Shown here: positions 32,924 through 54,974 of the stretch, piece after piece
How positions within the stretch are numbered: the first letter of the stretch is position 1
Layout of the letters: each line of letters begins with the position of its first letter
Program-made: the position numbers and the translations under genes
The notes under the pieces: model-generated
What the model was told of the DNA's origin: nothing
Databases searched by the model: none
What the model saw: the letters and a program-made list of their open reading frames with translations, nothing else
Virus record (IMG/VR): IMGVR_UViG_3300011254_000489
Location: 23,024 to 87,023 of that record
DNA: 64,000 bases
Strand: one strand, 5' to 3'
DNA from: a virus

Positions 32924-32924
32924 T

Positions 32925-33086: not shown

Positions 33087-33095
33087 ATTATCACC

Positions 33096-33909: not shown

Positions 33910-33910
33910 A

Positions 33911-39499: not shown

Positions 39500-40081
39500 T
39501 CACCTGTATTTGTTTAGTATTTTAGTAACTCTCCAAGAGGTAGGAAACCAACTTGGATTGTTTCGCTTTGTCCAAAAAGCAAACTCCCACTTACCTTCAA
39601 GGTAGTAGTGTTGATAGGATTTAATCACAAAATCCCATGTGTGCTTTTCTTCCGGTAGTCTGTATTCATCAGCCATAGCAATAGATACAGGACTCAATTC
39701 ATCTTCATCATAAGAGAAGGTAAAACTGTCTCGTATTCTAGATTCAGTTCCGTGTGTCTTACCATAGCGGTAAGAGTATTCTTTGCATAGGGCTACTGCA
39801 TGATTGTATAACCACATGAAGTTGGCCTTGTTTTTCCTAGCCCAAATAGTACTAGGGTGATTTAGCATAGCGGGTTTCATCATGTAAGAGAAGTGAGATT
39901 CTTTGTGGAATCCCTTCAATTCTTTTAGAGAAGGTTCTCTACCATGTGCTTCCCAAAATAAAAAGTAGAGGGAATTAGTGTGTAGCATTTGACAACTTTC
40001 AGTAGGCATTTTTACTACATGTTTGTCCAACATTTGTTGGGCCGATTCTACGGGGCATTTTGATAGTGCAAATATGTTCAT
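39500..40081 (-). CDS. conserved phage-type protein, possible DNA glycosylase-like
   Basis: The 193-residue product has the segments SAQQMLDKHVVKMPTESCQM at 13-32, NHPSTIWARKNKANFMWLYN near 75, and EYSYRYGKTHGTE near 100. I recall this pattern from marine phage proteins often annotated as pyrimidine dimer DNA glycosylase-like or hypothetical. The catalytic residues cannot be confirmed by eye. A DNA repair role would fit a virus of sunlit water. Confidence 0.5.
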   Translation of the reverse strand: MNIFALSKCPVESAQQMLDKHVVKMPTESCQMLHTNSLYFLFWEAHGREPSLKELKGFHKESHFSYMMKPAMLNHPSTIWARKNKANFMWLYNHAVALCKEYSYRYGKTHGTESRIRDSFTFSYDEDELSPVSIAMADEYRLPEEKHTWDFVIKSYQHYYLEGKWEFAFWTKRNNPSWFPTSWRVTKILNKYR

Positions 40082-40386
40082 TCTTCATCACCTACCATTT
40101 CTACCAATGCTTCAATACCAAATCGCTCAACCATTAGGTCAAGGTGGTGGTTCGTTTCTTCAAACAATGCTCGTAGTCGCTTGACTTCTGCAAGGAGGAG
40201 TGGTGCGTCGGCCATGATTCGTAGGTTAGCCTTTTCCTCTTTGGTTATTAGTTGGTCTTTGTTGTAATTCCAACAAGGGTATTCCGCTATGATTTCATTA
40301 CCGCCTTTAGCAGTAGCATGAATAGTAGCACTGTCGTATTCCCACGGCCCTTCTGTGTGTCCTTCGTATTTATCTGTGTCAATCAT
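40078..40386 (-). CDS. Ead/Ea22-like phage protein, paralogue 1
   Basis: The 102-residue product begins MIDTDKYEGHTEGPWEYDSA and contains NLRIMADAPLLLAEVKRLRA. The 'KYEGHTpgPW' plus 'DAPLLLAEVKRL' pattern is common in phage and marine viral accessory proteins of the Ead/Ea22 kind. Its upstream neighbour shares both motifs, so the pair arose by duplication. Function is unknown. Confidence 0.6.
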   Translation of the reverse strand: MIDTDKYEGHTEGPWEYDSATIHATAKGGNEIIAEYPCWNYNKDQLITKEEKANLRIMADAPLLLAEVKRLRALFEETNHHLDLMVERFGIEALVEMVGDEE

Positions 40387-40628
40387 TCAATCCTCTCCCA
40401 CAATTCATCTATGAGTGCTTTCCAAGCGGGGTCTGCGTCAGCCATTTTATACAATCTGTCAAACGCCCGCTTGTATTTCTGCAACCGCTTGACTTCTGCA
40501 AGGAGAAGTGGTGCGTCTTGCATCAAGGTCTTATCAATCCCTTTCAATTCCTCAATGGTAAAGTAACCACTAAGAATACCATCCCACGGCGCAGGTGTGT
40601 GTCCTTCGTATTTGTCTATGTCAATCAT
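40383..40628 (-). CDS. Ead/Ea22-like phage protein, paralogue 2
   Basis: The 81-residue product begins MIDIDKYEGHTPAPWDGILS and contains DAPLLLAEVKRLQKYK. It shares start and centre with the next gene while the middle is shorter. The duplicated DNA is still visible near 'cgcttgacttctgcaaggag' in both genes (about 40180 and 40490). Function is unknown. Confidence 0.6.
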   Translation of the reverse strand: MIDIDKYEGHTPAPWDGILSGYFTIEELKGIDKTLMQDAPLLLAEVKRLQKYKRAFDRLYKMADADPAWKALIDELWERIE

Positions 40629-40741
40629 TGTTCATCACCCCGACTACCTGCCCAACCGCAAGAATAACAAGAATAGTAATTCTTATCTTCGTGTTGTTCA
40701 GCCATCCCTTGACAACCTTTTCCATTACATTTTATTTTCAT
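40625..40741 (-). CDS. 38-residue zinc-knuckle protein
   Basis: The product has C5, C10, then CYSC and GWAG (residues 24-32). A CxxxxC...CxxC arrangement could bind zinc. Start and stop overlap the neighbours (ATGA style). Function is unknown. Confidence 0.45.
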   Translation of the reverse strand: MKIKCNGKGCQGMAEQHEDKNYYSCYSCGWAGSRGDEQ

Positions 40742-40914
40742 ATTTTCATTCTCCTTATTGATATTTGGTATGCTTTGTATGGGCGCATACCTAGACCCGT
40801 TAGTTCTTTGTAGATTTCACTACGCTTCTCTTCTTCTTCCGCTTTACGATTCAAAAACACTGACTTGAATAAGTGCATAGATTCTTTACGGATTATGTCT
40901 TTCATATATTTCAT
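40738..40914 (-). CDS. 58-residue basic helical protein
   Basis: ATG follows AAGGTGATAAT, a strong site. The product (MKYMKDIIRKESMHLFKSVF...) is basic and helical. It starts a sub-block after a 185-base gap and overlaps the next small gene by 4 bases. No family is recognised. Confidence 0.45.
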   Translation of the reverse strand: MKYMKDIIRKESMHLFKSVFLNRKAEEEEKRSEIYKELTGLGMRPYKAYQISIRRMKI

Positions 40915-41099
40915 ATTATCACCTTAAATTTAAATTCTCTAAGTAGATTAACCTAGAGGGGATGGGGGAAGAGAAGGAGGGGAACGAACCCCCCTAGTCA
41001 ATGGATAGAAACATCAAACATGGAAGTGTAGATAAATTTCTCTCTTATTACTGACAAACCCCAAACTCTTTCTGTTGGACATAAGCCCAACTAGGAGTA
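40915..41099 (-). other. intergenic region with possible terminator hairpin and promoter
   Basis: No open reading frame was found here. On the minus strand, just after the UvrD-like stop, GTTGG and CCAAC (41074-41091) form a short hairpin without a T-run, a weak terminator candidate. An AT-rich stretch AGAGAAATTTATC follows near 41030 and could be a TATA box for the sub-block starting at 40914. Confidence 0.3.
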
Positions 41100-42533
41100 T
41101 TACTGTGGACTAGGCCCACAATAAAATAAGTTTCGCTTTGCTCTTGTTATTGCAACATAGCAAATGTTTCGTTCTTCTTGTGGATTAGTTGCTCTCGGAT
41201 GAGGCATCCTTTCCGTAGCCAAAAGATATACATTATCGGCTTCAAGACCCTTTGCTTTGTGTACTGTGGACAACATAATGTCACCCTTACCATCGGAAGA
41301 AAAGACTCGGTTAATCTCATCAATAATTCCTTGAACAGTGTTTGCCTTACCAACAAATATACTCAAGCAATTGTATTTATCTTCTAGTGCAAGTGCTTGA
41401 TTCTTTTTCTCTTTCAAGAGAAGTCTTTCTGTCTCTTTACTAAAGTGCTGATTCAACAACAGGTTGAACTCACTTGAAGACATTCCCATATTCTTACGGG
41501 AAACTTTCTTCACATAGTTTGTTAGTCCCTTTGTCATGTCACGCCCTAGAATATAAGCCGACTTTCCATCAGCCAATAAACTATAGAACGCAGTAGCGAG
41601 AGGTGCATTATAACGACACAAAACAATGTCGCCCTTGATTGGATTAAGGCTAGCAAATTCTTCTACACTACCTTCTTCCGCTTCATCTCTACAAGTGAAA
41701 TCTTTTACGAATCTGTTTGCTTCCTTTACAACAGACTTAGGGCAACGCCATGTTACGCTAAGTGGGAACTTACTAACTTCCCTATTGCTCGTCTTTAACA
41801 AATCTTCAAAGATTTGCATACTAGAAGAATCTGCTCCACGGAAACCGTAAATTGCTTGGTTAGGGTCGCCTACTACAATACATCGGCCATCCGGTTCAAC
41901 ACTACGATAGATTAGTTGTCGTTGTGCTTCATTGAAATCTTGTGCCTCATCAACAAACAATACATCATACTTTTCCAAAGGAAGATTGTTCACTAGAGGA
42001 ATCCAAATCATATCATCAAAATCAATAGTTGATGAATTCATACTCAACTTCATAATTTGAGGTAGAGCATCAAAAGCCAACACTTCATCATGGTCTGTAT
42101 CAAAGTTAATATTGTAAGAATCAACCAACTTAGCGATTGACTTCCTATCACTACCTTCAATCATAGCACCCTTCATTAGAGATACTAGTTTAGCCAAAGG
42201 CACTGCGAAATAATCCGCACCTAGAACCTTTTTGATAATGTTATATGTCTTGGACTTGTCCATCTTAGTTCGCCCATTTTGCTTAATTGCTCGGAATCCC
42301 ATTGAATGAAATGTCGCCGCATAAACATCTTCGGGAAGACGCTTACCAAGTGTTGTTGCAATACTCTTATTGAATGCTAAGAAAGCCATCTTACCGGACA
42401 TTCTTTTTGCACCTTCTACAATAGTGAAGGTCTTACCAACACCTGCTCCTGCATCAACTACAACATGGTTTTCACCATGCTCCATTTCAGCCCAAATGTC
42501 TTCTTGTTGTTGTGTGCCTACAATTACCATCAT
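41100..42533 (-). CDS. UvrD/PcrA-like superfamily 1 DNA helicase
   Basis: The 477-residue product has motif I DAGAGVGKTFT near 27, motif Ia FLAFNKSIA, motif II FVDEAQDFNEAQ near 195, motif III VVGDPNQAIYGFRGAD near 218, motif V STVHKAKGLEADNV near 432 and motif VI CYVAITRAKRNLF near 460. All SF1A helicase motifs are present; the size is reduced against bacterial UvrD (720). It would unwind DNA 3' to 5' in repair or replication. Confidence 0.92.
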   Translation of the reverse strand: MMVIVGTQQQEDIWAEMEHGENHVVVDAGAGVGKTFTIVEGAKRMSGKMAFLAFNKSIATTLGKRLPEDVYAATFHSMGFRAIKQNGRTKMDKSKTYNIIKKVLGADYFAVPLAKLVSLMKGAMIEGSDRKSIAKLVDSYNINFDTDHDEVLAFDALPQIMKLSMNSSTIDFDDMIWIPLVNNLPLEKYDVLFVDEAQDFNEAQRQLIYRSVEPDGRCIVVGDPNQAIYGFRGADSSSMQIFEDLLKTSNREVSKFPLSVTWRCPKSVVKEANRFVKDFTCRDEAEEGSVEEFASLNPIKGDIVLCRYNAPLATAFYSLLADGKSAYILGRDMTKGLTNYVKKVSRKNMGMSSSEFNLLLNQHFSKETERLLLKEKKNQALALEDKYNCLSIFVGKANTVQGIIDEINRVFSSDGKGDIMLSTVHKAKGLEADNVYLLATERMPHPRATNPQEERNICYVAITRAKRNLFYCGPSPQ

Positions 42534-42790
42534 TCAACACCCAACCCAATATCATACATTTCTTTGTGTTCTAGAACATCAACCCATCCGTTATTTACCG
42601 GAGAATATAATTGCTTTCTAACTGAACCATCTTTCATAATATAGAGGCAAACAAAACCCGACTCATCTTGATAATTACACATCAAGGAATTGTCCGGCCC
42701 TGCATACCACCTATCTTCAAATGTCCATCCTACTCCACCTACGGCGAAGTGTCGTTCTTGCTTCTCGTTTATTTCTATTATTATTTGCAT
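42530..42790 (-). CDS. hypothetical protein, first gene of the leftward array
   Basis: ATG 42790 follows GGAGGTAGAAAC and is preferred to the upstream frame. The 86-residue product (MQIIIEINEKQERHFAVGG...) is beta-rich and includes EDRWYAGPDNSLMCN. It overlaps the helicase by 4 bases. As the first gene behind a structured leader it may be regulatory. No family is recognised. Confidence 0.5.
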   Translation of the reverse strand: MQIIIEINEKQERHFAVGGVGWTFEDRWYAGPDNSLMCNYQDESGFVCLYIMKDGSVRKQLYSPVNNGWVDVLEHKEMYDIGLGVE

Positions 42791-42812
42791 GTTTCTACCT
42801 CCTATCAAGGGT

Positions 42813-42905
42813 GAGAGTAGGGCCACACTAAATAAATTAGTGATTATCTTAAAAGGCTCCATAGCCCTACTCTCTGTCTCTAAGGGATAAACCCCGATTG
42901 AGACA
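42813..42905 (-). promoter_or_regulatory. structured leader of the leftward array
   Basis: Two perfect inverted repeats follow each other in the presumed 5' leader. GAGAGTAGGGC (42813-42823) pairs with GCCCTACTCTC (42864-42874) and encloses a smaller CACTAA/TTAGTG stem. TGTCTC (42875-42880) pairs with GAGACA (42900-42905) around a GGG/CCC pair. On the minus strand these would form RNA hairpins just before the ribosome site of 42530-42790. They may control expression of the whole array. Confidence 0.45.
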
Positions 42906-42923
42906 CCTAGACCTCCCGATTTG

Positions 42924-42932
42924 CTTTATAAG
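42924..42932 (-). promoter_or_regulatory. candidate TATA box of the leftward array
   Basis: The minus strand reads CTTATAAAG preceded by CCTAAACC, which could serve as a BRE. It lies about 135 bases before the first ATG, and a start 25 bases below it would fall at the edge of the structured leader. The element is palindromic, so it could serve either direction. Confidence 0.45.
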
Positions 42933-43131
42933 GGTTTAGGGGCCATTTCGGGTTAAAGATATTGGAGAAAAAGTATAGCATTATCAAAATACCATTGAAC
43001 TAAATAGTACTAGCATCTTTACTACTTAGGTAAGACAAAACACCAATAGTATTTTTTTATGTAAAATATTGTTATCTTAATTATTATCATATTATTCTCT
43101 ATTCGTAAACGAAGCACTGCTCCATAATTCT

Positions 43132-43328
43132 CATTATTCTCATTTTTCTCTAGGGGTGTCAATTTCTCACACCCCCATATGAGAATAATGATAAAGATGA
43201 GAATTGAAAAATGCTCTTTAGATATATGATAATAATGATAATATGATAATAATATATTAAAATATACTTATTTTCTTCAAAAAGACACTTTTTGCCCATT
43301 TATTATTCTCACTTCGGATGAGAATAAC
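43132..43328. other. candidate replication origin: AT-rich palindrome cluster
   Basis: TCATTATTCTCAT (43132-43144) pairs with ATGAGAATAATGA (43180-43192), enclosing GGGGTGT/ACACCCC (43154-43176). A second palindrome TTATTCTCA/TGAGAATAA spans 43304-43328. The box TGAGAAT recurs at least five times in both orientations, with about 60 bases of nearly pure A/T (43215-43275) in between. The region is gene-free (42941-43520) and lies where transcription diverges. Iteron-like boxes plus an AT-rich stretch suit a replication origin; a divergent promoter region is the alternative. Confidence 0.5.
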
Positions 43329-43520
43329 ATGAGAAACTCAAAATTCCACACATATATGTTATATACATAAGCACAATTGAAAACCTGTAAAACAATATCA
43401 AGCAATAACAAACACAATAAAAAGGAGAGTTATCAAGGAAGGATAGTTATGTGATTTAGGTATTATGCGTAAGACGCTTTGTAGATGAGCATTAAATACC
43501 CTACCGTGATTCTTGGTTGT

Positions 43521-43539
43521 CTTAACCCACCACACACGG
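43521..43539. repeat. left arm of long-range inverted repeat flanking 43562-44092
   Basis: CTTAACCCACCACACACGG here matches the reverse complement of 44125-44144 over 16 uninterrupted bases, then one extra base and four more. The two arms lie in the 5' leader and just after the stop of the same gene, so its mRNA could pair end to end. The matching gene 46656-47171 has a shorter but similar pair. Confidence 0.7.
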
Positions 43540-43561
43540 AAAGATAAGGAAAGGTGAAAAT

Positions 43562-44092
43562 ATGCCCACAAAGAAAGAAACGAAAACAGAAACCGAAACT
43601 AGCGAAGCGGCTCAAGCCGTGGATTATTCAAAATATACCGCCCGATTGGGTGACATTCAAGGAGTCCTTGAACAGGCTCCAAACGCCAAACTTCAAATGG
43701 CGGTGGATGACATCAATAAGGTTATTGAACAACAACTTGATGAAAAGTTGTGCATTCAACTAATTGGTGCATTGAAGACCTACATTCAACTTGAAGGTGA
43801 AGCCGGAGCAATTTACGCTGACGCTATGCCTCAACGACTACGCTCAAGCGACCCACTCGCTCAAGCACATTATACACGAATTGACAACGAATTGAATACA
43901 TTGATGGACGATAACTCACCACTTCTTGAAGTGATGTTTAGTCTTAAAATCGGTATGCGAGTTAAGGAAGGAGAAGTACCCACCCTTGACGACTACCGTT
44001 CAACACTACGAAAGAAGAACCGAGCCGTGAACAAATACAACAAAACCGCTTCAACTACTGCTCAACCAACGGAGGAATCAAGCGAGGCTTGA
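43562..44092 (+). CDS. hypothetical protein, paralogous in layout to 46656-47171
   Basis: ATG follows AAGGTGAAAAT. The 176-residue product starts with a charged low-complexity segment (KKETKTETETSEAAQ), continues helically (LQMAVDDINKVIEQQLDEKL and LIGALKTYIQLEGEA) and ends polar. A weak common pattern 'MAV[DE]D..., D[DE]KL..., L.A..T...L.G' is shared with the protein at 46656-47171. GC content is higher than that of its neighbours. Function is unknown; it is the first rightward gene beside the origin-like region. Confidence 0.6.
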   Translation: MPTKKETKTETETSEAAQAVDYSKYTARLGDIQGVLEQAPNAKLQMAVDDINKVIEQQLDEKLCIQLIGALKTYIQLEGEAGAIYADAMPQRLRSSDPLAQAHYTRIDNELNTLMDDNSPLLEVMFSLKIGMRVKEGEVPTLDDYRSTLRKKNRAVNKYNKTASTTAQPTEESSEA

Positions 44093-44124
44093 AGCCCGCT
44101 TACCCCATGAACTAAACCCCTAAG

Positions 44125-44144
44125 CCGTGTGTGGTGGGTTTAAG
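44125..44144. repeat. right arm of long-range inverted repeat flanking 43562-44092
   Basis: CCGTGTGTGGTGGGTTTAAG pairs with 43521-43539. It is followed at once by GGCTCCATTATGG (44144-44156), a segment that recurs in inverted orientation after the paralogous gene at 46656-47171. Confidence 0.7.
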
Positions 44145-44156
44145 GCTCCATTATGG

Positions 44157-44172
44157 CCCCCCTACGGGGGGG
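44157..44172 (+). terminator. GC-rich hairpin, possible terminator of 43562-44092
   Basis: CCCCCC (44157-44162), loop TAC, GGGGGGG (44166-44172) followed by TT. It stands 65 bases after the stop and just before the double-hairpin element. Similar hairpins lie at the same relative place after three other genes of this region. Confidence 0.5.
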
Positions 44173-44180
44173 TTAAGTGG

Positions 44181-44251
44181 GGTTGTGTCTAGTCATTACC
44201 CCAAAGATTATCATTAAGACACAACCATATGGTATGTACTTTGAACATACC
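44181..44251. repeat. double-hairpin element 1 (CAAAG ... ACCATATGGT ... CTTTG)
   Basis: The first stem is GGTTGTGTCT (44181-44190) with AGACACAACC (44217-44226), a perfect 10-base pair that carries CCAAAG in its loop. It is joined by ATAT to a second stem GGTATGT (44231-44237) with ACATACC (44245-44251) around the loop ACTTTGA. The two loops contain CAAAG and CTTTG, which are complementary. Four further copies with different but still paired stems follow to 47.28 kb. Confidence 0.7.
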
Positions 44252-44280
44252 CTACTTGAACATAACGGGGAAGGTGGGGT

Positions 44281-44589
44281 ATGATGATAGATTTCAGCCT
44301 TGAAGAATTAAATGCAGACGAAGTGAAAGTAAACTACCAAACTAATTTAAGTGGTAGAGCAATGAACATAAGGACGACTTATTTTTTTACTTCCGTGGAA
44401 GATTATTGGTCAGCATACGACCTATTAGTAAAGCACAAACTAACCGATGGCTTCCAATTCCACTTTGACCAACGAAACGATAAGAATGTAATAGTTAGCA
44501 TGACAGAAGTTTCATTAGAATGGTATAGAAAAGAACAAAAACGAAAACAAGAACAGGGGGATTCACTGAGTAGTGAAATCAATGAGTAA
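44281..44589 (+). CDS. hypothetical protein, 102 residues
   Basis: The frame starts with two ATG codons (44281 and 44284) after GGAAGGTGGGGT. The product has strands and a helix (YFFTSVEDYWSAYDLLVKHK) and ends in a charged helix. No family is recognised. It begins 30 bases after double-hairpin element 1, as a separate cassette. Confidence 0.5.
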   Translation: MMIDFSLEELNADEVKVNYQTNLSGRAMNIRTTYFFTSVEDYWSAYDLLVKHKLTDGFQFHFDQRNDKNVIVSMTEVSLEWYRKEQKRKQEQGDSLSSEINE

Positions 44590-44695
44590 AGCGAACCCAT
44601 ATCTAGACATATGGGATTTCTTTACTGTTGAGTCGTCCACTACCCCCCCTACTACGAAGACGACAACAATTAAAGCAATCAAACAAGAGGAATAA
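44582..44695 (+). CDS. 37-residue possible ORF overlapping a nested hairpin
   Basis: ATG overlaps the upstream stop (ATGAGTAA). The product (MSKANPYLDIWDFFTVESST...) is Thr-rich and low complexity. The same bases form the nested hairpin GTAAAG-CCCATAT / ATATGGG-CTTTAC (44586-44625) and a second one GTTG..TCGTC/GACGACAAC (44627-44667). So the region may be a structural element similar to the double-hairpin repeats rather than a gene. Confidence 0.3.
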   Translation: MSKANPYLDIWDFFTVESSTTPPTTKTTTIKAIKQEE

Positions 44696-44697
44696 AA

Positions 44698-44871
44698 ATG
44701 AAAAAAGAAACAGAAGCAAAACTATACGAACTATTAGACTATCTAACTAGAACACTAAAATACTACAGTATGAATGATGACCATTGGAAAATATCACTTA
44801 GCCTAACAAGGCACACTGCAAGAGAACTAATCCCATTAGCGGAAAAAGAGTTGGAGAGTGAAGAAGAATGA
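44698..44871 (+). CDS. 57-residue helical protein
   Basis: ATG follows AGAGGAATAAAA. The product (MKKETEAKLYELLDYLTRTL...) is helical and acidic at its end. The stop overlaps the next ATG as ATGA. No family is recognised. Confidence 0.5.
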   Translation: MKKETEAKLYELLDYLTRTLKYYSMNDDHWKISLSLTRHTARELIPLAEKELESEEE

Positions 44872-45260
44872 CTAGATTTCTAACACACAAAGAATTTATG
44901 GAAATGACTGACCATTGGAGTTACATAGAACAAATAGCGTTTTTATTAGAGGATAGCGAGGTTCTAGATGCTATTTTAAAACACATAGAATGTTCATGGA
45001 ATGGTCGTTACGCATTCGTTAATCGTGAAACTAATGAAGTAGAAAAGGAAGACATTTACCATGTTACAGAGGAAGAAGTTAAGATTCAAGAAGATAAGAA
45101 CAAACTCACGGAGGCAATGCTCTTGCGTAAGCAGTTAGATAGTCTAAGAGAGTTTTGTCATAAAGAAGATTATGACATTTACGATTGGGAAGTAAAGAAG
45201 ATAGAGGTGATTAGAATAGAGACAGAGGAATGTGTCTTTGAAGAGTATTGGGAGGCTTAA
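44868..45260 (+). CDS. hypothetical protein, 130 residues
   Basis: The product begins MTRFLTHKEFMEMTDHWSYI and is highly acidic, with long helices around EEEVKIQEDKNKLTEAML. Its start overlaps the 57-residue gene. No family is recognised; it resembles other small cassette proteins in charge only. Confidence 0.5.
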   Translation: MTRFLTHKEFMEMTDHWSYIEQIAFLLEDSEVLDAILKHIECSWNGRYAFVNRETNEVEKEDIYHVTEEEVKIQEDKNKLTEAMLLRKQLDSLREFCHKEDYDIYDWEVKKIEVIRIETEECVFEEYWEA

Positions 45261-45262
45261 TC

Positions 45263-45355
45263 TTGGCTGAAATACAGACTCCACAGGGAACTGCGACCCT
45301 GTTATATGTTGCAGAGAGTGACGGCATTATTGAGATAGTCTTTTTAATAGATTAA
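45263..45355 (+). CDS. 30-residue possible mini-protein
   Basis: TTG start after GGGAGG, product MAEIQTPQGTATLLYVAESD and ten more residues. It stands directly after the 130-residue gene. Only the ribosome site supports it. Confidence 0.3.
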   Translation: MAEIQTPQGTATLLYVAESDGIIEIVFLID

Positions 45356-45370
45356 TTAATATCCCCTTTA

Positions 45371-45386
45371 GTCGGCTTTAGCCGAT
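45371..45386 (+). terminator. short hairpin before double-hairpin element 2
   Basis: GTCGGC (45371-45376), loop TTTA, GCCGAT (45381-45386) form a 6-base stem with one G-T pair, about 110 bases after the stop of 44868-45260. It could end the rightward cassette transcript. Confidence 0.35.
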
Positions 45387-45392
45387 TATCGG

Positions 45393-45433
45393 GGTATCCC
45401 AAAGTAATACCATATGGTTGTACTGATACTTTG
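45393..45433. repeat. double-hairpin element 2
   Basis: GGTAT (45393-45397) pairs with ATACC (45407-45411) around loop CCCAAAGTA, the same loop as in element 5. ATATGGT follows, and TACTTTG (45427-45433) is the exact complement of CAAAGTA (45400-45406). So the shared outline is GGTxx-CCCAAAGTA-xxACCATATGGT-...-ACTTTGA. Confidence 0.65.
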
Positions 45434-45440
45434 ACAGAGG

Positions 45441-45477
45441 TAAAAAACCCTAAGAGGGGTCGTAAGACCCCCCTTAA
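45441..45477 (-). terminator. hairpin plus T-run, terminator of 45507-45728
   Basis: On the minus strand GGGGTC (45466-45471 complement), loop TTAC, GACCCC is followed by TCTTAGGGTTTTTTA. A strong GC stem followed by six T is a good terminator for the minus-strand gene ending at 45507. It lies between that gene and element 2. Confidence 0.6.
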
Positions 45478-45506
45478 GACGATTATTTTTTGTGCTTATT
45501 CGCCCC

Positions 45507-45728
45507 TTACATTTTCCCCTCTCTAATCTCTTCTAAACGATTCTGTTCATTAGTAAAGAGTATTGCTTCTTCTACATTGTCAAAATATCTACAAGCCGTA
45601 GGGTAATTCAAGGCCATAACTACCCAATTGATGCTAACTATCATGCTATGATAGTACCATTTTCTTATGCCCGTTATTTCATCTTCTATATTGGATGCTG
45701 ACCAAAGCGTTATTGTTTCTCTTTGCAT
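45507..45728 (-). CDS. hypothetical protein, 73 residues
   Basis: The product (MQRETITLWSASNIEDEITG...) has strands followed by a helix (NVEEAILFTNEQNRLEEIRE). ATG follows GGAGAAATTAAA. It forms a single-gene cassette with its own terminator. No family is recognised. Confidence 0.5.
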   Translation of the reverse strand: MQRETITLWSASNIEDEITGIRKWYYHSMIVSINWVVMALNYPTACRYFDNVEEAILFTNEQNRLEEIREGKM

Positions 45729-45987
45729 TTTAATTTCTCCTTATGATATGTTGAATGGGATACCCTCACTGACCGCAACTCTTTATTTAATTCCACCTTG
45801 TCTGTGCTAATTCGTTTACTACTAAGTGTTCTTGGGCTAACATTGTCTAGAATATTGCTTTCTCTCTTAGGTTCACTACTGTTTCCACTACTCGGCGCGA
45901 TTCTCCGTCGTTATTGGGTTCTTTTCCGAAGGTGATTAACTAGTATTCGCCTTCGTACACCCAAGCCAACTACATTTCTTTAGATAA
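45729..45987. other. gene-free region upstream of 45507-45728
   Basis: This stretch has no supported open reading frame. It presumably holds the promoter of the 73-residue gene; TTTATTTAATT near 45781 is AT-rich, but no clear TATA/BRE stands out. It ends at double-hairpin element 3. Confidence 0.3.
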
Positions 45988-46034
45988 GGTAGCCACAAAG
46001 TTACTACCATATGGTTTGGCTTTGATGAACCCCG
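45988..46034. repeat. double-hairpin element 3
   Basis: GGTAG (45988-45992) pairs with CTACC (46004-46008) around CCACAAAGTTA. The palindrome ACCATATGGT is at 46006-46015, then GGCTTTGATG with CTTTG at 46020-46024. The stem pairs although its sequence differs from element 2. Confidence 0.65.
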
Positions 46035-46040
46035 AAGGGG
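46030..46040 (-). terminator. hairpin downstream of 46062-46349
   Basis: CCCC, loop GAA, GGGG (46030-46040), preceded on the minus strand by GGCGAAAGCC. It follows the stop of the minus-strand gene by 22 bases and abuts element 3. No T-run follows, so activity is uncertain. Confidence 0.4.
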
Positions 46041-46061
46041 GCTTTCGCCTAGTATTTTCCC

Positions 46062-46349
46062 TTATTCTACCTTGATAAGTGAACCGTCCCACAATTCACC
46101 GTTTAAGAACCATTGAAAATTCTTCTGCACGATATGAACATTAGGAAGGCCGTTCAAGCGTTCCTTTGTGGTTGTGGTTGCCCATCCTGCCGAAGTAATA
46201 AACAAACCATCAGCGTCAAGGGTTGCGATTACATGCCCATGAAGCAAAAGATAACTGCTTTTGCCTGTGACTACGACTTCACTATTTCCTCGCTTGAATT
46301 TTTCTCTATTCCTAAAAGCCCTTATTGCGTCCTCTGTTATCTTTCGCAT
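46062..46349 (-). CDS. conserved marine viral/phage protein of unknown function
   Basis: ATG 46349 is chosen because the upstream mini-gene stops one base before it (TGAAATG). The 95-residue product reads MRKITEDAIRAFRNREKF, then LLLHGHVIATLDADGLFITS and AGWATTTTKERLNGLPN, ending FLNGELWDG. The 'lHG..IA...GW.s.TTkeRLN' pattern is widespread in marine phage proteins without known function. Confidence 0.65.
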   Translation of the reverse strand: MRKITEDAIRAFRNREKFKRGNSEVVVTGKSSYLLLHGHVIATLDADGLFITSAGWATTTTKERLNGLPNVHIVQKNFQWFLNGELWDGSLIKVE

Positions 46350-46350
46350 T

Positions 46351-46482
46351 TCAAACACTCTCTCTGTTGCTTTTACAAATAGCACAATTCTTCAAATTAA
46401 ACATATGGCTAAATTGCGTACAGTTGGTCGTAACTATACCGTAATACTTAGCCATTATTTTTATTTCTTCAACATTCTTCAT
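46351..46482 (-). CDS. 43-residue protein with a CxxC motif
   Basis: ATG follows CGGAGAGATAAAA. The product has C21 and CAIC near 33-36, a possible metal site. It ends one base before the ATG of 46062-46349 and is probably translated with it. No family is recognised. Confidence 0.45.
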   Translation of the reverse strand: MKNVEEIKIMAKYYGIVTTNCTQFSHMFNLKNCAICKSNRESV

Positions 46483-46527
46483 TTTTATCTCTCCGATTAA
46501 CCTAGTAAATTAATACTGTTTAGATAG

Positions 46528-46576
46528 GGTATGACCAAAGTGCCTACCATATGGTTGCACTTTGATGCACACCTTA
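46528..46576. repeat. double-hairpin element 4
   Basis: GGTA (from 46529) pairs with TACC (46545-46548) around the loop with CAAAGTGC (46536-46543), which is the exact complement of GCACTTTG (46557-46564). The palindrome ACCATATGGT is at 46546-46555. After CTTTGAT comes GCACACC, which pairs partly with GGTTGC, giving the second stem. Confidence 0.65.
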
Positions 46577-46579
46577 TGA

Positions 46580-46594
46580 CTCCCATAAAGGGAG
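46580..46594 (-). terminator. hairpin downstream of 46656-47171
   Basis: CTCCC (46580-46584), loop ATAAA, GGGAG (46590-46594). On the minus strand it follows GGCTCCATTATGG, the same segment seen after gene 43562-44092. So both genes share the order stop, repeat arm, GGCTCCATTATGG, hairpin, double-hairpin element. Confidence 0.5.
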
Positions 46595-46611
46595 CCATAA
46601 TGGAGCCTATT

Positions 46612-46622
46612 GGGGAAGTTAG
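46612..46622. repeat. arm of inverted repeat flanking 46656-47171
   Basis: GGGGAAGTTAG here is the exact reverse complement of CTAACTTCCCC at 47194-47204. The arms flank the gene outside stop and start, as for 43562-44092, although the sequences differ. Confidence 0.6.
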
Positions 46623-46655
46623 ACTGACTAATAATTTCTAAGAGGCCTTAGCCCC

Positions 46656-47171
46656 TCAGTTGTCCTCCTGTGCGGTTTCGTTTAATTCGTTAATGTGTGA
46701 CTCGTAGTTGGTCGTTAGACTTTCCAACTGTCCGTCCCAAACCTTGTTCTTGAAGTCATCTTCAAGTCGGCGTGTGGTAGAGTTGTAAAGGAAATCAACA
46801 AGGGTTTCCTCTGTGTAGTAAACGATGTTCTCTTTGTTCTTCTTTCGGAAAAGATACACTAGAGCGTCGGGGTAGTAGTTTAGACCTGCGCCAACAAAGG
46901 AAGTAATGCTATCCTTAATTGCAGTAAAGGCAGGACTTAGTGCGTTGTTTGCATCTCGTTGTCCCGACTTAGGCAAGTAATCCCCGTACCCATGAAGGGT
47001 TGCAGTAGTACGACAAGCCGCATACAATGATGCTCGTAGTTTGTCGTCAATTGTGGTTAAAAGACAGTCTTCAACGGCCATTACGACTCGTTGATTTGCG
47101 TCCTTACCTTCCTTCTTCAATTGAGCCGATAGTGGCTCTAGTCTGTTCGTTATTCTTTCTAAATTTGACAT
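46656..47171 (-). CDS. hypothetical protein, paralogous in layout to 43562-44092
   Basis: ATG follows GGAAGGTGAAATATC, almost the same leader as 43562-44092. The 171-residue product is helical (LSAQLKKEGKDANQRVVMAV then DKLRASLYAACRTTATLHGY) and has a polar end. GC is raised compared with the flanks. The two genes point away from each other around the cassette region. Function is unknown. Confidence 0.55.
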   Translation of the reverse strand: MSNLERITNRLEPLSAQLKKEGKDANQRVVMAVEDCLLTTIDDKLRASLYAACRTTATLHGYGDYLPKSGQRDANNALSPAFTAIKDSITSFVGAGLNYYPDALVYLFRKKNKENIVYYTEETLVDFLYNSTTRRLEDDFKNKVWDGQLESLTTNYESHINELNETAQEDN

Positions 47172-47193
47172 GATATTTCACCTTCCGTCTGTG

Positions 47194-47204
47194 CTAACTT
47201 CCCC
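47194..47204. repeat. arm of inverted repeat flanking 46656-47171
   Basis: CTAACTTCCCC lies in the leader of 46656-47171, 22 bases before its ATG, and pairs with 46612-46622. Confidence 0.6.
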
Positions 47205-47225
47205 GTTAGACACCCAACTAATCGC

Positions 47226-47395
47226 ATACTATTCATAGGGTTGTAGCCCAAAGTACTACAACCATATGCTTTGCATCCAATTTTTATTTTTATTTATTAC
47301 TGTTTTACGGTATTAAAAGTACTATTTCCGGTAATAAACGGACTATTTGCATACTATTAATACTATTTTAGTAATACTATTACCACTATTCGGGG
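47226..47395. repeat. TACTATT repeat cluster before the rightward virion module
   Basis: The 7-mer TACTATT or its ACTATT core occurs about seven times between 47226 and 47390 (for example at 47227, 47319, 47352, 47361, 47375 and 47386). The reverse form AATAGTA occurs at 47674 and 47710. The stretch is AT-rich and gene-free. It could be a regulator binding array or promoter region for the late operon. Confidence 0.45.
47239..47280. repeat. double-hairpin element 5
   Basis: GGTTGTAG (47239-47246) pairs with CTACAACC (47256-47263) around loop CCCAAAGTA, identical to the loop of element 2. ATATGC-TTT-GCAT follows with CTTTG at 47269-47273. This is the right-hand member of the series and closes the cassette region. 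Confidence 0.65.
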
Positions 47396-47464
47396 TAGTT
47401 TCGCCACAGTACAATTTGGGTTAAGGTTATATCTTGATGGCCTCTGCGTCTATTTAGTGACGGC

Positions 47465-47671
47465 ATGAGTAACACGGCGGAAATGCTACAGTTATTCTTA
47501 GAGATTAAAACAGAATTACAAGAAGTTATTAGTAGACTTAACAATAAGAAAGATACAATAGATAGCGAAATACTAGTTAGAATAGTTAAAGATATTAATA
47601 AGTTAAAGATACTAATAACACAAATACAAGAAGAACGCAATCCAAAACAAAAACAATTAGGAGATTATTAG
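47465..47671 (+). CDS. small coiled-coil protein
   Basis: The 68-residue product (MSNTAEMLQLFLEIKTELQE...) is an almost continuous amphipathic helix with heptads. No good ribosome site precedes it, consistent with a leaderless or weakly translated first gene. It ends 110 bases before the tagged virion genes. No family is recognised. Confidence 0.45.
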   Translation: MSNTAEMLQLFLEIKTELQEVISRLNNKKDTIDSEILVRIVKDINKLKILITQIQEERNPKQKQLGDY

Positions 47672-47780
47672 AATAAATAGTATTAATTTTATCCTGTAAA
47701 TACATTAAATAGTAATAAAAAAGGCGGTATAGTGATAAAAAAATTCCGAGTGATTTTTGAAATATTTTTAGGTGATTAAG

Positions 47781-48218
47781 ATGAGTTGGTGGAATATAAT
47801 AAAAACCGACTTTGGTTCGTTTGACTTGAAGGGATTAAATTTTCCAAGATTGGCTGAACTTTTACAATTTTATGATATGTTGGAAAAGGAGATGGTGGAA
47901 AGAGAAGATGTTAAAGACTACCCCGATGTGGATTTCTACACCGATGAAGTTATGGCTGGGGACGCAATAGGCTACATAGAAGATAATTTTATGAACGAGT
48001 CGGGTTCCGTGTCTTTAAGTCTATCCGTGGCGTTGAATCTTTTCAGTAGAATAAAAACTTACGGTGGGGAAAACTTTGAAATGCTTTGGAAAGAACTTAA
48101 CGATGAAACCATTAAATACTTTCTTTTAGGATTTTTAGGAAGGGCTGAAAGGGCCGGTGTTGTGGACATTCGGGGTAAATTAAAAACCGCCGTTGATAAT
48201 TTTTCAAGAGATGTTTAA
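47781..48218 (+). CDS. tagged virion-module protein, 145 residues
   Basis: ATG 47781 follows AGGTGATTAAG and is chosen over 47772. The product begins MSWWNIIKTDFG, the first example of the short tag shared across this module, and continues as a helical acidic protein (LAELLQFYDMLEKEMVERED). No family is recognised. Its place at the front of the late operon suggests a virion or assembly protein. Confidence 0.5.
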   Translation: MSWWNIIKTDFGSFDLKGLNFPRLAELLQFYDMLEKEMVEREDVKDYPDVDFYTDEVMAGDAIGYIEDNFMNESGSVSLSLSVALNLFSRIKTYGGENFEMLWKELNDETIKYFLLGFLGRAERAGVVDIRGKLKTAVDNFSRDV

Positions 48219-48229
48219 GGGGTGCAAAT

Positions 48230-48583
48230 ATGGGTTGGGAAAATGTATTGAAGGTCTTTGGTGAGTATGGCTTTCCCGAAGGGGATGAGCGTAATGAGCA
48301 AACACGGAAAGCAAAAGAAAAATTTGCTAAAAACTCAATGGAAGTTTTGACAGGCCTTGCCTTTTCCTTAGAAACAATAGACGATTTAGAAGTAATAACG
48401 CAAAAACCTATTGGGTATCTTTTTGAAGAACTTGCTAAGTTATTAGAATTGAAAGCCGATTATTTAGAAGAAATTGCAGAAATTGAGGGAGATACTTTAT
48501 CTTCCCGAAGAGTAAGACCTAGTTTACAAGCATCCGAAAATAAAATGCGAGAATTGGCGAAAAAATTCCGAGCAAAATTTTGA
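48230..48583 (+). CDS. tagged virion-module protein, 117 residues
   Basis: The product starts MGWENVLKVFGEYGF and is helical throughout, with a coiled-coil-like segment (LFEELAKLLELKADYLEEIA). It overlaps the next frame's region by a few bases. Only the N-terminal tag links it to its neighbours. Confidence 0.5.
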   Translation: MGWENVLKVFGEYGFPEGDERNEQTRKAKEKFAKNSMEVLTGLAFSLETIDDLEVITQKPIGYLFEELAKLLELKADYLEEIAEIEGDTLSSRRVRPSLQASENKMRELAKKFRAKF

Positions 48584-48603
48584 GAAAAAAAGAGATGATT
48601 GAC

Positions 48604-49179
48604 ATGACATGGAAAGATATAATAAAAGCACAACTAGCGATTTTAGATAGAGAAGATGCTAGAGATTTAATGAGACAGTATCGGGGAAAACAGGCAAAGG
48701 CACTTGGAAAAAATATTGCTTTAATTCAACAGAACCTACCCGATGTAGTTAAAGAATTTAAAATAATGATGGATAATCCCGTTAAGGGCTATGATGGTAT
48801 TCCTTCATATAATACAGTTGATGCTACGGCAAATATAATTCTTGTTATTGATTACAAACAAATGAATTGGAATATTAACAGTAATAAATTTGGTGGCTAT
48901 GATGAATCTTATTATGGATTAGATAGTACACTAGAAGAATTATTCCGAGGGAATCCTTTATCTTTTCGGAATCCTTTATCATCCACTAGCGAAGGCGGGG
49001 TAAGAAACCGAAAAAGAAAAGACACCTTTACCGAGAAAGGAGAAATAGTATCCTACCAAAAAACCTTCCCGTTCAAAGTAGAGTTTGATGCGTCAAAACC
49101 AATGCTATTCGGTGCAGAAAAACTAATTGATTTTTTAGATGAGTTAGAAGATTTACTAGATAGGGAAGTTAGTCCTTGA
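48604..49179 (+). CDS. tagged virion-module protein, 191 residues
   Basis: ATG 48604 is preferred because the tag MTWKDIIKAQLA starts there and GAGATGATTG lies before it. The centre contains ANIILVIDYKQMNW and a compact beta domain ends FPFKVEFDASKPM. No family is recognised; a virion component is inferred from context. Confidence 0.5.
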   Translation: MTWKDIIKAQLAILDREDARDLMRQYRGKQAKALGKNIALIQQNLPDVVKEFKIMMDNPVKGYDGIPSYNTVDATANIILVIDYKQMNWNINSNKFGGYDESYYGLDSTLEELFRGNPLSFRNPLSSTSEGGVRNRKRKDTFTEKGEIVSYQKTFPFKVEFDASKPMLFGAEKLIDFLDELEDLLDREVSP

Positions 49180-49193
49180 GAAAGGTGATTATT

Positions 49194-49451
49194 ATGACAT
49201 GGAAAGATGGAATTAAAAAAGAAGCGGCGGATTTTTCAAGAGGAATGGAAGCGGCAAAAAGCCTTGCTAAAAACCACGACCATGCCTCATGGTTTCAAGT
49301 TGAAAATGACGATGAGTTTATGGCGAAATTACAGAAGCGTTTTGATGAATCCTATGAGAAATACGGTGGGCAGGACATTAATGTTCGTGTTTTGATTAGG
49401 AGTATAGGGCAACTTAATGGTGCTTTTTTACATCTAACAGAGGATGAGTAA
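49194..49451 (+). CDS. tagged virion-module protein, 85 residues
   Basis: ATG follows AAAGGTGATTATT. The product starts MTWKDGIKKEAADFS and is helical and charged (MAKLQKRFDESYEKYGG). The leader and first codons closely match those of the next gene, as if copied. Confidence 0.5.
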   Translation: MTWKDGIKKEAADFSRGMEAAKSLAKNHDHASWFQVENDDEFMAKLQKRFDESYEKYGGQDINVRVLIRSIGQLNGAFLHLTEDE

Positions 49452-49453
49452 TT

Positions 49454-49765
49454 ATGACATGGAAAGATGAAATTAGGAAAAACATATTTGAAAAAGACCC
49501 CGAAGACATGACTGCTTTTATGAATGTCAGTCCTCGGATGAAGCAAGAGGCTAAAAAGAAACAAGATAGCCTAAAAAGTGGTTTTAAAAACAATCAAGAA
49601 AACTATGAGACGGTTTTAGAAGCAATTGAGCGATTAATGGGATTAAAGGATTCAATTACTAGAGGTATGAAAGAATCTGAAGATGAGCAAATCAATGAAG
49701 ATGAGATGAGAAAAATTGCTATGGCTCTCAATAAAGCGGCTCAACAGTTAGAATCTTACTACTGA
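49454..49765 (+). CDS. tagged virion-module protein, 103 residues
   Basis: The product starts MTWKDEIRKNIFEKDPED. The rest is a helical protein with SPRMKQEAKKKQDSLKSG and a long C-terminal helix. It is separated from the upstream stop by only two bases (taATTATG). No family is recognised. Confidence 0.5.
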   Translation: MTWKDEIRKNIFEKDPEDMTAFMNVSPRMKQEAKKKQDSLKSGFKNNQENYETVLEAIERLMGLKDSITRGMKESEDEQINEDEMRKIAMALNKAAQQLESYY

Positions 49766-49780
49766 AAAAAGGTGATTATT

Positions 49781-49888
49781 ATGACTAATCAAGAGATAGG
49801 CGAAGCAACTGAAGATATTCGGGACTTTTTGGAACTTACAGAATCGGAGTGGAAGAGTTATTTTAATCGTTCTCAAGCAGGTAAGTGA
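49781..49888 (+). CDS. 35-residue mini-protein
   Basis: ATG follows AAAGGTGATTATT, the same leader as 49194-49451. The product MTNQEIGEATEDIRDFLELT plus ESEWKSYFNRSQAGK lacks the tag. It may be a small assembly factor or a leader peptide. Confidence 0.45.
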   Translation: MTNQEIGEATEDIRDFLELTESEWKSYFNRSQAGK

Positions 49889-49897
49889 GATATTCTT

Positions 49898-50857
49898 ATG
49901 TTTCAAATTTTCTTTGCCGTAGGTAGCCAGCCGTTTAAAAATTTAGGCAGTGTTGATTATCTAACTCGTAATAGAGCCAAAACCGCCCTACACCATTTTT
50001 GGGGTATCGTTGAAGGTGATGATGAGAAGGGTGAATTACTAGGAGGCGAAGTACCTGTGCGATATGAGATTAGGGAAAAGAAGTCCGAAGATAAGTGGAA
50101 GGATATACTCAAGCGTCGGAGGGTAGAAGACCCTAGAGCAAGGAGCAAGCGTAATGAGACTACTAACTTTAGAATGTCCAAGCCCGCTATTGCAACTAAA
50201 GAAGAAATAGCGGAGAGAGAATACGATAGAAAGAGGCAATTTGCCCCTTCTGTTTCTAAAGAAGTAATACTAGCCCTTGTTGATAGGTACTCTTCCGCCC
50301 TTATTTTTTCAGTAGTCAAGGAAGAAACTTTGCCTATAATAGAAAAATACACTGATATGGATAAGGGCTATGACGACGATTACAGTAAAGATGGATTGGA
50401 ATATTTTGAAAACCTCTTCAAAAGGGGTAGTGGTTCTCCGACTGAGATTTTTAAAGAAATTAAATCATTAAATGATAAAGACTATCGTTTATTTTTAAAT
50501 GAGTTACAGAAAGAATTCAAAAATATTCGCAATTTATCGGTTTACAGGGGTTCGGAAGAAGACTATGAAACGGGTGCTAATCTTGGTTCAAAGGGTAGAC
50601 GCTCCGAAAGCAGTACTTGGCCTAACACTTTTAGATTTCTGTTGAAGGAGGATGAGACTTTCATCAACGGTTCGTCATACGAGACTGCTGATGAGTATTG
50701 GGAAGATAGAGGAATAACGGCTGATAAATTTTTGGCTGAATTAACTCCTGCTTTGAATAAGGCCAAATCTTCTTTACAGGGTAGGGGTTTATTTAATACT
50801 GCTAAGAAAGTATTTGGAGATTACAGTAGAAAGATAGTTAGGGGTGAGAAAAAGTGA
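49898..50857 (+). CDS. virion-module protein with internal tag-like motif
   Basis: The 319-residue product starts MFQIFFAVGSQPFKNLGS and carries the tag-like motif KWKDILKRRRVEDPRARS near residues 66-83, inside the protein rather than at its start. The rest is helical with a possible catalytic-like part LSVYRGSEEDYETGANLGSK near 210, which resembles the R-S-E layout of ADP-ribosyltransferases, but I cannot confirm it. No clear family. Confidence 0.45.
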   Translation: MFQIFFAVGSQPFKNLGSVDYLTRNRAKTALHHFWGIVEGDDEKGELLGGEVPVRYEIREKKSEDKWKDILKRRRVEDPRARSKRNETTNFRMSKPAIATKEEIAEREYDRKRQFAPSVSKEVILALVDRYSSALIFSVVKEETLPIIEKYTDMDKGYDDDYSKDGLEYFENLFKRGSGSPTEIFKEIKSLNDKDYRLFLNELQKEFKNIRNLSVYRGSEEDYETGANLGSKGRRSESSTWPNTFRFLLKEDETFINGSSYETADEYWEDRGITADKFLAELTPALNKAKSSLQGRGLFNTAKKVFGDYSRKIVRGEKK

Positions 50858-51033
50858 GTTGGACTGATTTAGTTAAATATAGTGATAGGGAAGTTGCTTC
50901 TAAAATACAACAGACGGGTTTTTGTTCTCGTTGTAAGCGAAAGGTTAGAAAATATACAAAATGTCCTTTATCTTTACCTTCTCCTTCTACAGGTGTGAAG
51001 CCGGATTGTCCTATGAGGGAGGAAAAAACATGA
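50854..51033 (+). CDS. tagged 59-residue zinc-knuckle protein
   Basis: GTG start overlaps the upstream stop (GTGA). The product begins MSWTDLVKYSDREVA and then has CSRC near 24, C37 and C52, a possible zinc site with basic linker KRKVRKYTK. The stop overlaps the next ATG. Confidence 0.5.
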   Translation: MSWTDLVKYSDREVASKIQQTGFCSRCKRKVRKYTKCPLSLPSPSTGVKPDCPMREEKT

Positions 51034-51266
51034 GTTGGAAAGATGATTTGACGCGTGATGGTATAACTGCGGAAATGAAGAGGCAACTTTTTGATATTTT
51101 GGCTAATCAGCCGGAAATTACTCTTAGGGGTATTGAAGAAGGCCTCTATAATCGTGGTTATCAAAGAGTAAACAGGAAAAAAATTAGGAAATTTATGATG
51201 AGTTCTCCAAAAGTGCGATTTAACAAGAAATATAATGACACTAGTACCTATTCATTGGAGAAGTGA
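51030..51266 (+). CDS. tagged winged-helix-like protein, 78 residues
   Basis: ATG follows GAGGGAGGAAAAAAC. The product starts MSWKDDLTRDGITAEMKRQL and continues with a helix-turn-helix (TLRGIEEGLYNRGYQRVNRK) and a wing ending TSTYSLEK. A DNA-binding virion or packaging factor is possible. Confidence 0.5.
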   Translation: MSWKDDLTRDGITAEMKRQLFDILANQPEITLRGIEEGLYNRGYQRVNRKKIRKFMMSSPKVRFNKKYNDTSTYSLEK

Positions 51267-51271
51267 ATAGA

Positions 51272-51736
51272 ATGTGGTTTGATATTATTAAATCGGTTGA
51301 AATTTTGACCGAAAATTCGGCTAGCAAGATGTTAGACGGGTTTAAGACTGCGGTTGAGAAGGGTTATCCTGCAATTATTACTCCTTTGTCTCTTGTTGCT
51401 AAGATTCAAGATGGCGAATTGGCCGCTTTTACCTCTTTTAACGATATGGGCGAGTTTTTCTTTGTTGGAAATAGTTTAACTAATCCAAAATACAAGGGTC
51501 GGGGCTATTTTACTCAAATTTTGTCTTCTAGAGACGATTATACTAAGGGGAAGCCTAGAATTACTTTGCTAAATCCTTTAGATTCTAAGTCTAGGAGTAT
51601 TGTTAGGGCGGTTGTTACCAAAAAGGGTGGTAAGGAAGTGACTTCTTATGCTGATGTTCAAGATATTATGGATGAGCAGACCTACAAAGGGATGAAAAGC
51701 ACTAATTTAGATATGTTTAGGTACAAGGTGATTTGA
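51272..51736 (+). CDS. tagged GNAT-acetyltransferase-like protein
   Basis: ATG 51272 follows GGAGAAGTGAATAG and gives the tag variant MWFDIIKSVEIL. The 154-residue product has FFFVGNSLTNPKYKGRGYFT near 66-85, close to the GNAT motif A (strand then a K-x-x-GRGxF turn). The remainder is alpha/beta. It may modify virion or host proteins; activity is not certain. Confidence 0.5.
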   Translation: MWFDIIKSVEILTENSASKMLDGFKTAVEKGYPAIITPLSLVAKIQDGELAAFTSFNDMGEFFFVGNSLTNPKYKGRGYFTQILSSRDDYTKGKPRITLLNPLDSKSRSIVRAVVTKKGGKEVTSYADVQDIMDEQTYKGMKSTNLDMFRYKVI

Positions 51737-51927
51737 TGACATGGAAAAATATACTCAAAATTAGTACCGAAGAGGCAATTCAAGATGCTGAGAGGTATGC
51801 AGACTCCGAAGATACTGAAATGGAAAAGGTAGCAGGGGCGGTAACTACATCAAGTGCGGCCCATTCCCTTCTATTTAGGCCGACCTTTGGCGGTAAGCGA
51901 AGGAAGCGCAAAAAGAAGGAGGATTGA
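51736..51927 (+). CDS. tagged 63-residue protein with basic tail
   Basis: ATG overlaps the upstream TGA and follows AAGGTGATTTG. The product starts MTWKNILKISTEEAIQDAER, then YADSEDTEMEK, and ends with the basic tail GGKRRKRKKKED. Its first 30 residues resemble those of 52915-53376 (ILKIS, DAER[FY]AD, ED). The basic tail could bind DNA or the capsid interior. Confidence 0.5.
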   Translation: MTWKNILKISTEEAIQDAERYADSEDTEMEKVAGAVTTSSAAHSLLFRPTFGGKRRKRKKKED

Positions 51928-51929
51928 TT

Positions 51930-52913: not shown

Positions 52914-52914
52914 T

Positions 52915-53376: not shown

Positions 53377-53385
53377 GGTATTGAT

Positions 53386-54039: not shown

Positions 54040-54060
54040 GTTGGAAAGAAATATTGAAAA
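54019..54060 (+). repeat. duplicated ribosome-site-plus-tag DNA, copy 1
   Basis: The stretch ATGCAGGAGAGATTACA followed by ATGAGTTGGAAAG recurs at 54528-54569 with one mismatch in 41 bases, and partly at 54959-55000. It covers the end of the previous gene, the ribosome site, the start codon and the eight tag codons. So the start region of a tagged gene was copied as a unit. Confidence 0.75.
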
Positions 54061-54527: not shown

Positions 54528-54569
54528 ATGCAGGAGAGATTACAATGAGTTGGAAAAAAATATTGAAAT
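54528..54569 (+). repeat. duplicated ribosome-site-plus-tag DNA, copy 2
   Basis: This copy matches 54019-54060 almost exactly but lies after a stop codon, so the part that encodes the end of the upstream protein in copy 1 is non-coding here. That indicates copy 1 as the source. Confidence 0.75.
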
Positions 54570-54958: not shown

Positions 54959-54974
54959 TACAAGAGAGATTACA

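Follow-up and report, generated by a model that had tools for sequence, protein, structure and literature searches.

By function, the systems closest to the locus described here are integrons and the PeSLs of T4. Integrons have been reported from archaea, and clusters of attC sites without an integrase (CALINs) from phages (PMC9668308, PMC9892861). PeSLs (promoter-early stem-loops) are composites of an early promoter and a terminator stem-loop. They are conserved intergenic motifs that separate small accessory genes within a hyperplastic part of the genome of large tailed viruses, the T4-type phages, and they are linked to modular shuffling. Here we describe a gene-cassette array with hairpin elements in a 64,000-nucleotide stretch of viral DNA (hereafter, the window), which represents positions 23024-87023, i.e., most, of the 87,023-bp IMG/VR record IMGVR_UViG_3300011254_000489. 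The source virus is a magrovirus, as judged by gene content and relatives; profiles of the International Committee on Taxonomy of Viruses (ICTV) describe magroviruses as tailed double-stranded DNA viruses of Poseidoniales archaea (PMC12999244, PMC10768690). The elements mark where cassettes of this array meet and are exchanged, the array lies beside a fixed head site, and the break in identity between relatives falls within a 10-bp core, ACCATATGGT.

Five elements were confirmed in the window at the positions given by an earlier note (Table 1), which had described them as double hairpins of one outline. The shared layout held, and elements 1-4 were two-sided as described. The second loop, by contrast, was not constantly ACTTTGA (GCTTTGA in element 3 and GCTTTGC in element 5), and element 5, a special site at the end of the array, had CATATGCTTTG on its right side and lacked a complete second hairpin. 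The core occurred four times in the window, once in each of elements 1-4, and element 5 carried a variant instead. The pattern CAAAGTN{3,16}ACCATATGGT matched six times in the window vs. 0 in 100 shuffles. Because the layout is symmetric and its reverse complement reads alike, the position of all copies on the same strand carries no meaning.

Each element comprised two half-sites arranged head to head, GGT-stem-(CAAAG)-stem-ACC/ATAT/GGT-stem-(CTTTG)-stem-ACC. On the strand leaving a cassette, the half-site read GGT-stem-CAAAG-stem-ACC-AT, and two halves joined as ACC-ATAT-GGT, so that each hairpin of an element belongs to a different cassette. CAAAG and ACC were separated by a variable distance, mostly between 3 and 9 nt, and GGT was present at most 30 nt upstream of CAAAG at 88% of the ends, compared with 40% in shuffled flanks. 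At least 3 bp of pairing beyond GGT/ACC was found at 203 of 939 ends, against 30 ± 6 in a control that reassigned the 3' arms to other ends. When each homology cluster contributed a single end, the count was 132 of 660 vs. 19.9 ± 4.2, and no shuffle exceeded 35. The covariation of the arms far above this control bears out the claim of the earlier note that compensatory change reflects selection on structure; the role as cassette border and exchange point was missing from its interpretation. Neither condition that the note had named for its refutation, a lack of copies in relatives or of covariation above a shuffled control, applied.

No covariation was detected between the two halves of an element, either as palindrome extension or as half assortment. 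Covariation confined to the halves is expected if half-sites are inherited as units and exchange takes place between them. A single central hairpin was rejected as the selected fold, since central palindrome extension was below chance (0.45 vs. 0.61 ± 0.05). A site polarity joining an A end to a T end was not supported, since the halves assorted near-randomly. CAAAG and CTTTG were nearly invariant, and covariation therefore cannot reveal loop-loop pairing; the invariance fits protein contact equally.

The elements were found in dozens of relatives, and once these are counted, they exceed chance very strongly. When viral contigs were scanned with the full pattern, at least 119 stretches matched. 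In a sample of 33 long records, chosen partly by the element pattern, 32 had sites; among the places listed these almost always formed one cluster of a few kb, and one record had a stray site outside it. The UvrD-like helicase gene beside the array was used as an element-independent bait for choosing relatives. Of 40 relatives whose helicase was 55% or more identical and for which no less than 7 kb of upstream sequence was available, 39 had the array, as against 0 of 13 in the group at 35-49% identity. Arrays comprised 3-12 sites (median 6) spanning 2.3-5.3 kb, normally as one cluster per genome. The exception among the 40 was L176 (IMGVR_UViG_3300025803_000009), in which six tandem ACCATATGCTTTGGC sites lay on one strand, mostly followed by a TATA-like stretch, and no standard double hairpin was found. 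An origin from the host was rejected: the strict pattern matched only three contigs of metagenome-assembled genomes (MAGs) in 84,980 genomes, one of them a magrovirus fragment, the other two matching nothing in this analysis. The fragment (L207, NZTP01000027.1) is filed under an Altibacter MAG, contains three elements and is up to 97% identical to IMG/VR magroviruses.

The cassettes were permuted among the nearest relatives. L129 and L130 agreed as far as the head site and then jumped: L129 1967-2720 corresponded to L130 5794-6546, and L129 3056-3588 to L130 4637-5177, and the jumps fell on the centres of elements. Across L129, L130 and L131, whole cassettes had moved, again with breaks at element centres. 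The 561 distinct element contexts yielded 784 cassette-end clusters; 220 of these had several members, and 117 of the 220 had two or more partners. When one flank was 85-95% identical, the partner differed in 121 of 267 comparisons made at elements, vs. 33 of 315 made within cassettes and 26 of 196 made outside arrays. Among 151 distinct switches (the same cassette end with different partners), the near hairpin was kept and the far one lost in 108, and column identity around the core was 0.88 at -6 and 0.39 at +6. Homology was judged solely more than 45 nt from the element centre, which leaves the location of the break unbiased. The cassette-end clusters, the switches and the stem count by homology cluster were corrected for overlapping loci of one contig, and the gain/loss footprints comprised 28 rows, some from such overlapping loci.

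The array end distal to the helicase was almost invariant. It read as an A-rich tract and TTTGGAACAAAGC(C)ATATGGTTGT, in which CAAAG adjoins the core; element 5 is the copy in the window, and the head sequence CAAAGC(C)ATATGG was present in 43 helicase-picked loci. The role of this head site may resemble that of attI, by analogy only.

The elements delimited 424 distinct cassettes with a median size of 655 bp, 300 of which contained exactly one open reading frame (ORF) of at least 50 amino acids (aa). The 411 main cassette proteins fell into 160 families, including 121 singletons. When 50 cassette gene families were compared with Pfam, PHROGs and PADLOC, there were almost no matches except Gp96. 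Both orientations were common by gene family: the commonest, family 0 (n = 123), had 64 copies on the same strand as the helicase and 44 on the opposite one, and the Kyano_Gp96/phrog_554 family occurred at other positions and in the other orientation in L129-L131. This family is also present in cyanophages and is thus common to viruses of bacteria and archaea. The family 0 proteins are highly diverged paralogues with the pattern HGKSGG...WDGT. Within the window, the interior of the cassette between elements 2 and 3 differed in L127, a relative with 98% helicase identity.

The comparisons establish the cassette borders, the reassortment, the break in the core and the covariation limited to each half. 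We consider it probable that exchange at these sites is a dedicated reaction on folded DNA, either single-stranded or cruciform. Each cassette carries its own hairpin at both ends, with a GGT/ACC stem and a loop with CAAAG on the outgoing strand. Recombination in the palindromic ACC-ATAT-GGT core joins cassette ends in either gene orientation, between the fixed head site and the fixed flank on the helicase side, and the hairpins would present ATAT for cutting or strand exchange. Variable stems beside constant loops suggest that the stems are read as structure and the loops as a sequence that must fit all partners. The constancy of the loops is compatible with loop-loop pairing between any two sites or with a loop-binding enzyme, so the invariant CAAAG/CTTTG loops might act between sites in either way. 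Folded-DNA recombination by a putative enzyme appears the most likely route.

Several observations weigh against a dedicated reaction of this kind. Pfam scans of about 40 window proteins detected no recombinase, transposase or HUH enzyme, the ICTV profiles of two magrovirus families mention neither an integrase nor a transposase (PMC12999244, PMC10768690), and no excision product or activity was observed. Folded alone as single-stranded DNA, elements 1, 4 and 5 were better than shuffles (Table 1), but elements 2 and 3 were not (z -0.31 and -0.41), and the best fold of element 4 was one central hairpin instead of two. About half of the ends had at most 1 bp beyond GGT/ACC, so long stems are favoured, yet not needed. 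Only one cassette was found at the nucleotide level in both orientations relative to the helicase, no in-place inversion was seen, and the evidence on orientation is mostly at the level of gene families. The only HUH motifs found were in two proteins, one structural (2104 aa) and the other HMG-CoA-lyase-like. The virus encodes an ERCC4-type nuclease (12532-13227), a PD-(D/E)XK nuclease (15309-16208) and the UvrD-like helicase, which are at most candidates for a part in the exchange. Two candidates for the recombinase were rejected: family 0, whose confident all-helical model had no fold match in PDB or BFVD, and the 405-aa protein encoded at 34719-35936, whose matches were all weak and included E2-like folds (BRCA1-A complex, UFC1).

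The array resembles an integron in its small one-gene cassettes of mostly unknown function arrayed beside a fixed end site, in recombination sites that vary in sequence while their folded structure is kept, and in the exchange of arrayed cassettes at these sites. However, no IntI tyrosine recombinase was found among the scanned proteins, and GTTRRRY/RYYYAAC boxes were not evident, the exchange core ACCATATGGT lacking GTT (judged without an attC covariance model). In addition, the break lies in the central ACC-ATAT-GGT palindrome rather than at a crossover in the R box, and the magrovirus site is symmetric, with cassettes in both orientations and a half-site at each cassette end. Since integrase, site boxes and crossover position, and the symmetric two-ended layout do not match, the array falls outside the definition of an integron.

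The likeness to PeSLs holds as a description of the sites, i.e., a conserved intergenic stem-loop with shuffling, and not as shared descent. Unlike PeSLs, the magrovirus sites are archaeal-viral and combine a symmetric double hairpin, covarying stems, an invariant 10-bp core and a fixed head. The hairpin motif itself, moreover, lies at both sides of the genes, with CAAAG/CTTTG at 96% of the start-side and 96% of the stop-side cassette ends.

The hix and gix sites of serine invertases are palindromes with an ACC-n-GGT centre and a central crossover permitting inversion, and the element may resemble them in this respect. However, the distance from the core to CAAAG varies by many bases, unlike that of a fixed duplex-binding dimer, and no serine recombinase was recognised in the scanned proteins. 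The IS200/IS605 and REP/RAYT systems likewise have DNA hairpins, read as structure, close to where their mobile units end; here, no Y1/HUH enzyme or DDE transposase was recognised among those proteins, and each unit has one gene, with head-to-head half-sites in a fixed array. As judged against part of the magrovirus literature, the locus fits neither the definition of an integron nor clearly that of a PeSL. Tentatively, it may represent a third kind of cassette shuffling in addition to these two, in which cassettes bear hairpin half-sites, complementary loops pair the sites, and ATAT is exchanged by an undescribed viral enzyme or by replication and repair enzymes.

The main rival, which we hold to be rather unlikely, is that the elements are PeSL-like modules: conserved intergenic motifs for regulation or insulation, in which shuffling is a by-product at a shared 10-bp palindrome. 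Annealing, template switching or illegitimate recombination would suffice without a dedicated enzyme, and the products would be kept since genes are spared. This explanation agrees with the lack of a recombinase among the scanned proteins and predicts the same break point, the longest run common to all elements. TATA-like ACC(Y)TAT sequences were commoner at start-side than at stop-side ends (31 vs. 11%), and ends rich in GC hairpins were commoner on the stop side (17 vs. 5%). The tandem sites in L176 (ACCATATGCTTTG) also lie upstream of TATA-like boxes, and PeSLs shuffle modules in T4-type phages according to work cited in PMC4503421. Against it, the motif is as frequent on the stop side as on the start side, it occurs in the array and not in front of other genes, and the covarying stems within halves and the fixed head site are left unexplained. 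Moreover, a shared run of 10 bp is very short by the standards of ordinary homologous recombination. If the PeSL-like explanation is true, the system is a variation on an already known kind.

Structured RNA, i.e., double hairpins acting in processing, stability or regulation, possibly via kissing loops, is improbable. The covariation of the stems suits any single-strand fold, RNA or DNA. However, the site is symmetric and gave no clear strand signal, also when G.T and A.C mismatches were compared, the genes it flanks lie in both orientations, and an RNA role does not account for exchange at the element centre. Such a role is less likely because start and stop sides have the motif equally often, with a TATA-like box frequently following it directly on the start side, and because the region 40000-50000 of the window had no Rfam match up to E 1.

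The array lies where two oppositely directed gene blocks diverge and the cumulative GC skew is lowest, and the stretch beside the head site (47280-47470) is A/T-rich, with repeats such as TACTATT. This stretch is a candidate replication origin, and an origin beside the head site is possible. That the elements themselves are origin iterons, or a partition or packaging site, is very improbable, since they are spaced by one gene, number 3-12 copies and enclose content that is exchanged. An artefact from chance repeats or chimeric assembly is scarcely credible: the sequences are metagenome assemblies, but the flanks compared come from diverged lineages (75-95% identity) and different reads, the 10 bp shared at a switch is shorter than assembler word sizes, and the expectation for the pattern was 0.

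Table 1. Array elements, cassettes and flanking genes, with positions in the window
Feature	Position	Strand	Layout or content	Evidence or remark
UvrD-like helicase gene beside array	41100-42533	-		phrog_1967, E 3.7e-93
Gene flanking array, helicase side	43562-44092	+		position next to last element conserved in L127, L129-L131
Element 1, helicase-side array end	44181-44251	.	first hairpin GGTTGTGTCT/AGACACAACC, 44181-44226; second GGTATGT/ACATACC, 44231-44251; core ACCATATGGT, 44224-44233	sequence; DNA fold z -3.95
Cassette, elements 1-2	44230-45413	+	genes 44281-44589 and 44868-45260, small ORF	unknown function
Element 2	45393-45450 (right end approximate)	.	GGTAT/ATACC, loop CCCAAAGTA; right half GGTT...CTTTG...AACC until ~45450; core 45409-45418	sequence and pattern; fold alone not significant
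Cassette, elements 2-3	45414-46010	-	ORF 45507-45728	
Element 3	45988-46034	.	GGTAG/CTACC with CAAAG loop; right half GGTT/AACC with CTTTG; core 46006-46015	sequence and pattern; fold alone not significant
Cassette, elements 3-4	46011-46550	-	gene 46062-46385	Kyano_Gp96/phrog_554
Element 4	46528-46576	.	GGTA/TACC with CAAAG; right half TGCA-CTTTGA-TGCA; core 46546-46555	sequence and pattern; DNA fold z -2.86, one central hairpin
Cassette, elements 4-5	46551-47265	-	gene 46656-47171	family 0
Element 5, array head	47239-47300	-	single hairpin GGTTGTAG/CTACAACC, then ATAT-GCTTTGC (minus strand GCAAAGCATATGG), then A/T-rich tract; ACCATATGCT at 47261	head site in 43 helicase-picked loci; fold z -3.59

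Genes recognised in the genome, partly named by eye from the sequence, included a family B DNA polymerase, a clamp and clamp loader, TFB, a chaperonin and a terminase; a collection of named phages contained no close relative of the terminase. The sequence TTGTCAATCA was found at both ends of the record (window 63991-64000; L205, 1-10), which fits a circularly permuted, near-complete genome. In the rightward block (window 47772-55472 and 63025-63738; L205, 91-5102), many proteins began with M[ST]WKDILK or a similar motif, e.g., at 48580, 49454, 54036, 54545, 54975 and 63025, and this start may be a sorting or capsid-targeting tag. Adjacent genes at 32378-35936 encoded a JAB-like protease (weak, E 0.036), a ThiF/E1-like protein (E 1.7e-16) and the conserved 405-aa protein; they are possibly a viral set for ubiquitin-like conjugation.

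Magroviruses, which abound in the surface ocean, are known from metagenomes alone and have been described as lacking integrases. The arrays likely serve the rapid turnover of small accessory genes. A cassette platform equipped with structured sites for exchange would be a new way for archaeal viruses to evolve by modules; it would also explain the turnover of small unknown genes and provide a defined DNA site with which to hunt for the enzyme. The elements give a ready listing of cassette genes, which are candidates for functions in host interaction or counter-defence.

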